Positions 31,678 to 34,679 of a stretch of 64,000 nucleotides of DNA are shown piece by piece. The notes below the pieces were generated by a model, which did not search any database, was not told the origin of the DNA, and saw nothing but the letters and a program-made list of their open reading frames with translations. Position 1 is the first letter of the stretch. Every line of letters starts with the position of its first letter. Source of the DNA: Halopseudomonas salegens (GTDB taxonomy: Bacteria; Pseudomonadota; Gammaproteobacteria; Pseudomonadales; Pseudomonadaceae); contig NZ_LT629787.1 of the NCBI RefSeq assembly GCF_900105655.1, positions 1,984,001 through 2,048,000 on the forward strand. The letters are read 5' to 3'. The translations under genes and the position numbers were made by a program.

Positions 31678-31934
31678 CCATTCTGTATATTCTGGTACCG
31701 ATTGCCCTGTTGCTGGTCATCATTGCCGTAGTAGTGTTCAACTGGGCGGTGAATACCGGTCAATATGACGATCTGGAAGGGCCGGCACACAGCATTCTGT
31801 TTGATGATGACGACCCGGCCCACCTGGCGGCGCAGCCCGAAGAGCAAACGGCCAAAGAACAGCCTTCCAGCAGCCAGACGCCTGCACCTGATGCTCCGCC
31901 CGCAGGTGACAACAAAGAACACAAAGCCGGATGA
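31674..31934 (+). CDS. ccoS: cbb3 oxidase maturation protein CcoS
   Basis: Eighty-six residues with one N-terminal helix (ILYILVPIALLLVIIAVVVF) and the CcoS motif (FNWAVNTGQYDDLEGPAHSILFDDD), required for cofactor insertion into the oxidase. It overlaps ccoI by 4 bp and safE by 4 bp. The C-terminus is a Pro/Ala/Glu-rich extension. Confidence 0.96.
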   Translation: MTILYILVPIALLLVIIAVVVFNWAVNTGQYDDLEGPAHSILFDDDDPAHLAAQPEEQTAKEQPSSSQTPAPDAPPAGDNKEHKAG

Positions 31935-32704
31935 GCACTGATCTGATCCCCTTGCTGTTGACCGCCCTGGCACTGGGTTTGCTGGGGGGCGGCCACTGTA
32001 TCGGCATGTGCGGCGGGCTGATGGGGGCCATGACGCTGGCGATTCCAGCCGATCAGCGCAAGGGCTGGGTTCTCTGGCGCGTCCTGCTTGGCTACAACCT
32101 GGGCAGGATAGCCAGCTACACCCTTGCCGGCGCCTTGCTGGGTGGCCTGGGCTGGCTGGCGCAAGATATCGGGCTGGGCCGCAGCCTGCGCACGGTGGCC
32201 GGTTTGATGATGATCGCCATGGGCCTCTATCTCGCCAACTGGTGGGCCGGGCTGACCTATGTGGAACGCCTTGGCAAAGGCCTCTGGCGGCATATCCAGC
32301 CCCTCGCCAGCCGGATGCTGCCAATCACCAGCGCCCCGCGGGCATTGGTTGTTGGAGCGCTGTGGGGCTGGCTGCCTTGCGGCCTGGTCTACAGCACCCT
32401 GATATGGGCCAGCAGTCAGGGGCACGCTGGCCAATCCGCGCTGCTGATGCTGGCGTTCGGGGTTGGCACCCTGCCAACCTTGCTGGCGACAGGTGTGGCT
32501 GCGGAACGTCTACTCGCGTTGCTGCGATTGCGCAGAGTCCGCATTACTGCCGCACTGCTGGTCATTCTTTTTGGTATCTGGACCCTGCCCGGCCCGCACA
32601 AAGCCTGGTTGATGGGTCACAGTACCGGCCAGACTCACAACGACCAACCTGCACCCGCATTTGATCCACATCAAGGCCCGGAACAAAGCGACCGCCTACA
32701 CTGA
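31931..32704 (+). CDS. SafE/TauE-like membrane protein of the cbb3 cluster
   Basis: 257 residues with six predicted membrane helices. It starts with the motif GHCIGMCGGLMGAM, repeated in altered form as ALWGWLPCGLVYSTL, the DsbD/SafE-like pattern of paired cysteines. Such proteins are coded next to ccoS in many bacteria and may serve copper or haem handling for the oxidase; the sulfite-exporter name is by family only. Its last 44 bases hold an Anr promoter for the following gene. Confidence 0.85.
   Translation: MSTDLIPLLLTALALGLLGGGHCIGMCGGLMGAMTLAIPADQRKGWVLWRVLLGYNLGRIASYTLAGALLGGLGWLAQDIGLGRSLRTVAGLMMIAMGLYLANWWAGLTYVERLGKGLWRHIQPLASRMLPITSAPRALVVGALWGWLPCGLVYSTLIWASSQGHAGQSALLMLAFGVGTLPTLLATGVAAERLLALLRLRRVRITAALLVILFGIWTLPGPHKAWLMGHSTGQTHNDQPAPAFDPHQGPEQSDRLH
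32661..32674 (+). promoter_or_regulatory. Perfect Anr/FNR site inside the end of safE
   Basis: TTGATCCACATCAA matches the FNR/Anr consensus at all 10 fixed bases. Its centre is 32667.5, which puts a class II start at about 32709, five bases after the safE stop. The hexamer TACACT (32697-32702) lies exactly at -12 to -7. The HemN-like gene starts at 32737, giving a short leader. Anr control of that gene is therefore strongly indicated. Confidence 0.85.
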
Positions 32705-32736
32705 GCCCAGTATTCGTACTCAGTGAGGGAATACCC

Positions 32737-33837
32737 ATGCAGGCTGTTCTTTACGCCCCGACTTCAACCAAGCCTGGCGGCAATGGTCAGTTACCTCTGC
32801 GCCAGTTGCTCCGGGAAACGGTGGATCACCTGGCCATCCGCCGGGCACTGCGAGCCAGCCGGCTTGCCGAACGTGATCTGGCCCTGAATATTCGGCTGCC
32901 TTTTTGCGCCAACGCCTGCTTTTTTTGCAACCGCTGCCGGATAATCGCCAAGGACCGTAGCAAAGCCAGCGACTATCTGCATTTACTGGGTACTGAAATC
33001 GCCACAATTGGCCGTCACCTGGACCAGCGCCAACAGGTCAGGCAACTGCATCTGGGGGGCGGCACCCCGACGTTTTTCGGCCATCAGGCACTGACCCAGT
33101 TGATGAACAAGCTGCACCGACATTTCAATCTGTCGGCCATGCCCGACATTGATGCCAGCGTGGCTATCGACCCGCGTGAGGTCGACTGGGCCACACTGGA
33201 TTTACTGCGCGGCCTGGGCTTCAACCGTCTGAACATCATGCAGCCCAGTCTCGACCCTCGCGTACAAACTGCGGTCAACCGCTTGCAGGGTGACCAGCAA
33301 TTTGCTGAATGCCTCGCCGCAGCACGCACCCTGCGCTTCCACAGCATCGGCATCGAGCTGATGGCTGGTCTGCCCGAACAAAGCCTGGACAGTTTCTGTC
33401 AGACACTCGACAGCATCGTTGGCTGGCGCCCGGAACGCATCCGTTTGACCTGCTACCGTCACCAACCAGAGCATTATCCGCCGCAGCGACGAATCAACCG
33501 GGCCAGTCTGCCCAGTCCCCAGGAGACTGCGGCGGCGAAGCAGCATTGCCAGCAGTACCTCCTGGCAACGGGTTATCAACGACTGCAACATGACCTGTTC
33601 GTTTTGCCCCAGGATCCACTGGCCATTGCCGCAGAGGACAGCACGCCATTGCGCCATACCGCGTGCGGCTTGAGCGGGCATCCTGATTGCGATGAAATCG
33701 GAGTCGGCCTGGGTGCAATCAGCGACGTCAACGGCCTCGCCTGGCAAAACAGCACGCAACTTGCCTGCTGGCAACAGCGAGCAGCGCGCGCCCAGTTTAC
33801 CGCCCAGTATCAATGGCCTGCTCCAGCGGCCCCCTGA
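32737..33837 (+). CDS. HemN-like radical SAM protein, short and lacking key HemN residues
   Basis: 366 residues, aligning by eye with oxygen-independent coproporphyrinogen III dehydrogenase HemN (about 457) along its length but ending about 80 residues early, without the HemN C-terminal domain. The cluster motif is C57-x3-C61-x2-C64-x2-C67, so the fourth cysteine sits one place later than in HemN. The Tyr and His before the first cysteine (YVHIPFC in E. coli) are Asn and Arg here (NIRLPFC). The Glu of the IEVDPRE motif is Ala (VAIDPRE), and the FQ pair near the end is replaced (TACG). GGGTPT and the SAM-family fold remain. It may be a renamed HemN relative with another job in haem or oxidase assembly. 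Confidence 0.8.
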
Positions 33838-33947: not shown

Positions 33948-34679
33948 ATGAGTGACGCCATCAAACTACGTGCCCTGCCTGAAGCCCACTGCAAAGATTG
34001 CAGCCTGTCAGCCATGTGCCTGCCCCTCTCCTTGCAGGATCAGGAACTGGAGACTCTGGACAACATCGTCAAGCGCGGCCGGCCACTGAAAAAGGGTGAA
34101 AACCTGTTCCGTCAGGGCGATCCGTTCAATTCCATCTATGCGCTGCGCTCGGGCGCAATCAAGACTTTCAGTGTGTCTGACAGTGGTGAAGAACAGATCA
34201 CCGGTTTTCACCTGGCCAGCGAAATGATCGGACTATCGGGCATGGATGACGAACGCTACCCCGTCTCGGCCGTAGCGCTGGAGACCACCTCGGTATGCGA
34301 GATTCCCTTTGAGCGCCTGGATGACCTGACCGCAGCCATGCCACAACTGCGCAAGCAGGTCATGCGCCTGATGAGCCGGGAAATTCGTGACGATCAGCAA
34401 ATGATGCTGTTGCTGTCGAAAAAGACTGCCGACGAACGCATCGCAACCCTGCTGATCAACCTTTCCGCTCGGTTCCGGGCCCGTGGCTACTCGGCCACTG
34501 CCTTCCGGCTGGCCATGTCGCGCAATGAAATCGGCAATTATCTAGGCCTTGCGGTGGAAACGGTATCCCGGGTATTTACCCGCTTCCAGCAACAACAACT
34601 GATTGCCGCTGAAGGCAAGCAGATCGAAATTCTCGACCATGCGCAGCTGTGTGCTCTGGCCGGCGGTCAATTTGATTAA
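33948..34679 (+). CDS. anr: Oxygen-sensing regulator Anr (FNR family)
   Basis: Global activator of anaerobic and microaerobic genes through an oxygen-sensitive 4Fe-4S cluster. 243 residues from the ATG at 33948; an earlier in-frame ATG at 33813 would add 45 unrelated residues. Cluster ligands are Cys15, Cys18 and Cys24 ([11 protein letters not shown]) and Cys117 (TSVCEIP). A cAMP-binding fold and a C-terminal winged helix follow, with the FNR recognition helix [11 protein letters not shown]. It is coded next to its likely targets, the cbb3 genes and the HemN-like gene. Confidence 0.96.

Follow-up and report, generated by a model that had tools for sequence, protein, structure and literature searches.

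A HemN-derived protein between safE and anr

The window analysed here, a stretch of 64,000 nucleotides of Halopseudomonas salegens DNA (contig NZ_LT629787.1, positions 1,984,001 to 2,048,000), contains a gene for a radical S-adenosylmethionine (SAM) protein, located between a safE-like gene and anr (Table 1). The protein is derived from HemN, and its lost residues indicate that it is very probably not an ordinary coproporphyrinogen dehydrogenase. The host genome is a single contig of 3.80 Mb. Intact proteins of this type number seven: the window protein (G000), P0002 (G028), P0003 (G025), L011 (G015), P0004, P0005 and L013 (G019, probably H. yangmingensis). In all five genomic carriers the gene stands between safE and anr. 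The safE-like product matched no NCBIfam family at E 0.01.

Table 1 Features of the locus (positions in the window)
Feature	Position	Strand	Basis or remark
HemN-derived radical SAM protein gene, 366 residues	32737–33837	+	Open reading frame translation, family and residue comparisons
safE-like (TauE/SafE) membrane protein gene, upstream neighbour	31931–32704	+	Open reading frame; name carried over from the first-pass annotation
anr, Fnr family regulator gene, downstream neighbour	33948–34679	+	NF008365, 328 bits (cut-off 228); start MSDAIKLR
Anr/FNR palindrome TTGATCCACATCAA, perfect	32661–32674	+	Inside the 3′ end of safE
−10 element TACACT, class II spacing	32697–32702	+	Sequence; distance the same in 5/5 carriers
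GAGGGA, probable ribosome-binding site	32725–32730	+	Sequence; GTGAGGGAAT in 4/5 carriers
Cysteine motif C57xxxC61xxC64xxC67	32905–32937	+	Three cluster cysteines and a fourth one place later than HemN C71
Codon of A143, at the place of HemN E145	33163–33165	+	Alignment

Residues lost and kept

Residues were compared with the E. coli HemN sequence (L101), to which the window protein is 32% identical. The cysteine motif reads CxxxCxxCxxC rather than the CxxxCxxCxC of HemN: R66 occupies the place of C71, the fourth and catalytic cysteine of HemN, and a cysteine follows one position on. HemN residues Y56, H58 and E145 are replaced by N51, R53 and A143, and NFQG is replaced by TACG, so that F310 and Q311 are gone. 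The first-pass annotation had claimed a radical SAM protein of this length with these replacements and without the C-terminal domain, and each part stands: the Radical_SAM family PF04055 scores 52.4 bits (cut-off 29.5), and Pfam finds no HemN_C (PF06969) in the window protein but finds it in the canonical HemN of the same genome. The losses, which extend across a whole clade, also include features outside that annotation's list, namely the N-terminal PRYTSYP stretch, which is the trip-wire of HemN, Q172 (replaced by P) and D209 (replaced by E). E145, Q172 and D209 are conserved in HemN, and Y56, F310, Q311 and the C-terminal domain are counted among the parts needed for its chemistry.

The barrel has the same fold as HemN. 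The CxxxCxxC motif with its three cluster cysteines, G112–G113, R184 (the arginine of the first SAM site, SAM1) and the new cysteine C67 are present in 7/7 proteins, whereas the place of C71 is taken by arginine in six, glutamine in one and cysteine in none. A143, M168, P170, S171 and M209 are specific to the clade, occurring in 6/6 truncated rows (L013 apart) as counted against 52 of 70 rows with CxxxCxxCxC. D209 is retained in P0002 and L013, and E145 and Q172 in L013. The positions lost are those of the second SAM (SAM2), the catalytic cysteine and both lids, and most of the cluster and SAM1 core is retained; the pattern looks like the coherent loss of one chemistry rather than random wear. 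Y56 of HemN stacks on SAM2 (PMC13266988).

Against TIGR00538 (hemN; cut-off 324.95) the window protein scores 218.9 bits and its six relatives 191.7 to 289.3; L013, at 289 bits, is an intermediate, the other six scoring 191.7–223.8. HemW was rejected (TIGR00539, 76.2 bits against a cut-off of 205.4; HNxxYW is absent, though present in the HemW of the same genome), as were ChuW/HutW (TIGR04107, 81.5 against 400), HemZ (TIGR03994, 94.8 against 321.4) and the STM4012 family (NF006067, 114.1 against 380). A split HemN was also discarded: no stand-alone HemN_C in the genome exceeds the cut-off, the search yielding just two weak matches, with E values of 0.21 and 0.27. NocN (9p2u), which was matched by sequence, is not among the 50 fold-comparison matches listed, from which no conclusion is drawn.

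Anr site and promoter

The first-pass annotation had described a perfect Anr site within the end of safE and a −10 element at class II spacing, and both are present: the predicted transcription start near 32709 places the centre of the site at −41.5 by our count. The 3.80-Mb genome contains nine perfect Anr sites, TTGATCCACATCAA among them, and none matching the reversed control pattern; sites with at most one mismatch number four in the window against 1.57 expected, which is unremarkable for the window alone. Among the five genomic carriers the Anr box has 0–1 mismatch, and 36 bases past its start stands TACACT in four and TAAAAT in G019. The promoter was not listed by the sigma-70 scan, as class II promoters lack a −35 element. 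Control of the gene by Anr is predicted from the site alone.

The gene occupies the place of hemN, as had been proposed, and published synteny is in broad agreement. According to PMC6588701, hemN adjoins anr in two Pseudomonas species and is separated from it by one gene in the other species covered, and hemN has a core Anr box. An Anr box with no more than one mismatch is present at all 33 hemN-bearing safE–anr loci of other genera that were scanned (L036, L102–L133) and at none of the 26 same-genus loci lacking the gene (L074–L099), three of which have a box with two mismatches. Presence of the box thus tracks presence of the gene.

Distribution and origin

Within the genus, matches to P0005 at E 1e-95 or better occur in 4/37 genomes, G019 having diverged too far to pass that threshold. 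None of the 26 other same-genus safE–anr loci read has the gene, and ccoI and ccoS are in view in 25 of them; these and the five carriers cover 31 of the 37 genomes. Being missing from those 26 loci, the gene does not serve as a general factor for cbb3. Viral contigs scanned with P0005 yielded no match.

In a tree of 84 rows (L147 omitted), the seven proteins form one clade (100/100) on a stem of 1.37, with 1.5 more leading to the inner six, and this clade nests inside Pseudomonadaceae HemN (100/100). Nesting among proven coproporphyrinogen dehydrogenases had been named as grounds for refuting a changed function; the clade does nest among HemN proteins, but no row there is known to us as biochemically proven, and the nesting is a matter of origin, not of function. 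The best tree puts the clade among same-locus HemN (98/97), and on that ground an origin by recent copying of the moaA-linked hemN of the same genome was rejected. However, joining the clade to the hemN1 of its own genus, a group chosen after the tree was seen, was not rejected by the approximately unbiased test (p 0.409), and the exact branching within Pseudomonadaceae HemN is unsure and rests on synteny. The nearest full-length rows in a smaller tree were P0006–P0008, at a fork that lacks resolution in the larger one. The state of C71 requires at least six changes on the tree (the six rows without the cysteine motif omitted).

Selection on the gene

All seven reading frames are intact, and the ratio of non-synonymous to synonymous substitution rates (dN/dS) between carriers is 0.10–0.31, compared with 0.01–0.02 for anr, 0.03–0.08 for safE and 0.06–0.15 for hemN1; these ratios are rough, as most pairs have dS close to saturation and only G025/G015 lies well below it (dS 0.17). 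In that pair dN/dS is 0.25 overall, 0.12–0.15 for residues 46–260 and 0.56 for residues 261–366. Purifying selection thus holds the barrel, the C-terminal third being loose, and the earlier claim that a HemN relative is being kept was upheld.

Other haem genes and regulators

A search for a standard HemN, proposed in the first-pass annotation as a check, located one (CxxxCxxCAC, with HemN_C) beside moaA in the same genome, with an Anr box of one mismatch; HemF and HemW are also encoded. Because all three are present, haem synthesis appears independent of the window gene. Canonical HemN was found in four of the five carriers. The 17 same-genus hemN1 genes scanned all have an Anr box with two mismatches or fewer, and in another HemN class one of six genes scanned has none.

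A further HemN class with canonical CxxxCxxCAC, about 48–50% identical to hemN1, occurs elsewhere in some Halopseudomonas and Stutzerimonas genomes (L048–L060, L134–L143), and in L142 its neighbour resembles, by eye, a chemotaxis receptor gene. All five genomic carriers have a second Fnr-type regulator, 58–63% identical to Anr (L155 5890–6621, at G000:C1:1489392 in the H. salegens genome; L156; L158), with no counterpart at E 1e-80 in the other same-genus genomes searched. It was discarded as a partner of the window gene, its neighbours in L155 and L156 not being haem-synthesis genes by eye. Beyond about residue 211 of its 244 residues the Anr of G019 (L157 16–963) is diverged, so that the DNA-binding end seems to be broken close to a contig end, which may be an assembly artefact.

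The same locus in Stutzerimonas

An altered HemN is also seen at the safE–anr locus of genus g36, which we call Stutzerimonas from its named proteins. The 41 loci read (L102–L130, L132, L133 and L163–L172, safE being out of view in L172) have arginine at the place of C71 in 23 and cysteine in 18, in a sample biased by being drawn from the best matches listed for a query carrying the replacement (C71R). The arginine loci are L102, L107–L115, L117–L121, L129, L130, L165, L166, L168 and L170–L172, and the change apparently arose in several separate lines. At least two HemN-family matches at E 1e-90 are present in all 23 arginine genomes and in 14/18 of the cysteine keepers; the four genomes with a single match all keep the cysteine, and the second copy is canonical in the three arginine genomes read (G237, G137, G071). 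These counts, uncorrected for relatedness, are consistent with C71 having been lost only in genomes that have a further HemN. All seven C71R proteins tested score above the curated hemN cut-off.

Seven further loci (L144–L150, in G213, G190, G097, G237, G202, G175 and G223) encode a third HemN-derived protein, with frames of 435–468 residues, in which HemN_C is above the Pfam cut-off in 7/7 and neither a CxxxCxxC motif nor a Radical_SAM match was found. The six included in the tree group as a single clade (100/100) whose stem measures 1.5. These look like HemN pseudoenzymes that would lack an Fe–S cluster.

Proposed role and alternatives

The window protein probably does a different job from HemN. 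It descends from a Pseudomonadaceae HemN, most likely the copy standing between safE and anr, which a second, standard HemN in the cell would have freed. The SAM2 site, catalytic cysteine, trip-wire and C-terminal domain were lost; the radical SAM barrel was kept, together with the SAM1 arginine and the three cysteines of the cluster. At low oxygen Anr would switch the gene on, as it would standard hemN, judging from their sites. Oxidation of coproporphyrinogen III would be lost, to go by the residues missing, and the most likely job is haem or porphyrin handling as a chaperone or as a partner of HemN or of cbb3 assembly, the Fe–S cluster perhaps serving as a structural or oxygen-sensing part. 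We give this reading a probability of roughly 45%. Haem handling has precedents in CgdH2 and HemW; the link to cbb3 assembly is positional.

Several observations weigh against it. No haem ligand is recognisable, HNxxYW being absent, and the conserved histidine of LYxHxPFC, which we tentatively equate with H45 of CgdH2, is arginine in the window protein and R, Q, Q, H, H, Q and Y across the clade. Residues 261–366 evolve fast (dN/dS up to 0.56), and a distribution so narrow makes a broad role in assembling cbb3 less likely. The SAM1 glycine motif GGGTP is damaged in 2/7 proteins (L-GGSPT in P0005, around residues 104–110, with G111 missing; SGGTP in L011), where SAM1 binding may be eroding too. 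Canonical HemN was not found in carrier G028, a weak point given a genome in 210 contigs that is 93% complete.

The protein could instead be a single-SAM radical enzyme, its cluster still cleaving SAM1 and the emptied SAM2 and porphyrin cavity taking another molecule. The residues invariant in all seven proteins, the five clade-specific ones and the concentration of constraint in residues 46–260 suit such an enzyme; residues conserved in HemN are nevertheless changed (E145 and Q172 outside L013, D209 outside P0002 and L013), G111 is lost or altered in two proteins, and no partner gene points to a substrate, so that we find it somewhat unlikely.

It is unlikely that the gene is a decaying duplicate, a once-useful copy of HemN that is slowly being lost and is under residual constraint only. 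It does evolve faster than its neighbours (dN for G000/G028 is 0.19, against 0.02 for anr and 0.10 for safE), on long tree stems (1.37, 1.5), and the 26 other same-genus loci have no gene there; but the frames are intact, dN/dS is well under 1, the promoter layout keeps a fixed spacing in 5/5 carriers, and invariant clade-specific residues occupy formerly catalytic sites. Retained coproporphyrinogen dehydrogenase activity, or a role in boosting such an enzyme, by way of a rearranged active site would accord with the protein's descent, fold, hemN-like Anr site and the case of G028, but is very unlikely with Y56, C71, F310, Q311, HemN_C and the trip-wire gone and a standard HemN in its own genome.

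In broader terms, we suggest tentatively that a HemN copy became an Anr-induced radical SAM or haem-handling protein with one or no SAM site, serving haem supply to low-oxygen respiration, through stepwise intermediates preserved in living relatives. The visible steps would be the C71R proteins of Stutzerimonas, the truncated protein of H. yangmingensis that still has E145, and full loss in the window clade. Running from intact HemN by way of C71R to a shortened form without SAM2, at one locus and under the same kind of Anr box, the series offers a natural experiment on the residues that HemN chemistry requires and on how a haem enzyme turns into something else. It is also a warning: in many Stutzerimonas the 'hemN' next to anr passes the curated cut-off and yet may not encode a functional coproporphyrinogen dehydrogenase. 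Among the titles listed by literature searches, none concerns a HemN paralogue at the safE–anr locus, which does not prove its absence from print.

Comparison with known systems

HemN itself (E. coli, 1olt; TIGR00538) has Y56, H58, C71, E145, Q172, F310, Q311, HemN_C and PRYTSYP, all of which the window protein is without. HemW, likewise a HemN-like radical SAM protein, is without coproporphyrinogen oxidase activity (PMC11834973); it differs in its HNxxYW motif and C-terminal domain, both absent from the window protein, and a separate HemW is encoded elsewhere in the genome. Campylobacter jejuni CgdH2 is described in PMC10320005 as HemN-like, without coproporphyrinogen dehydrogenase activity, binding haem via H45/H133 and grouping with menaquinone methylases; the window protein differs in grouping with HemN and in having arginine at the histidine of the YxH motif. 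The Stutzerimonas C71R proteins (P0246 and others) share the safE–anr position, the Anr box, the arginine at C71 and at least one additional HemN-family gene in the genome but, unlike the window protein, are full length with HemN_C and keep Y56, H58, E145, Q172 and Q311, each in at least 9 of 10 rows.
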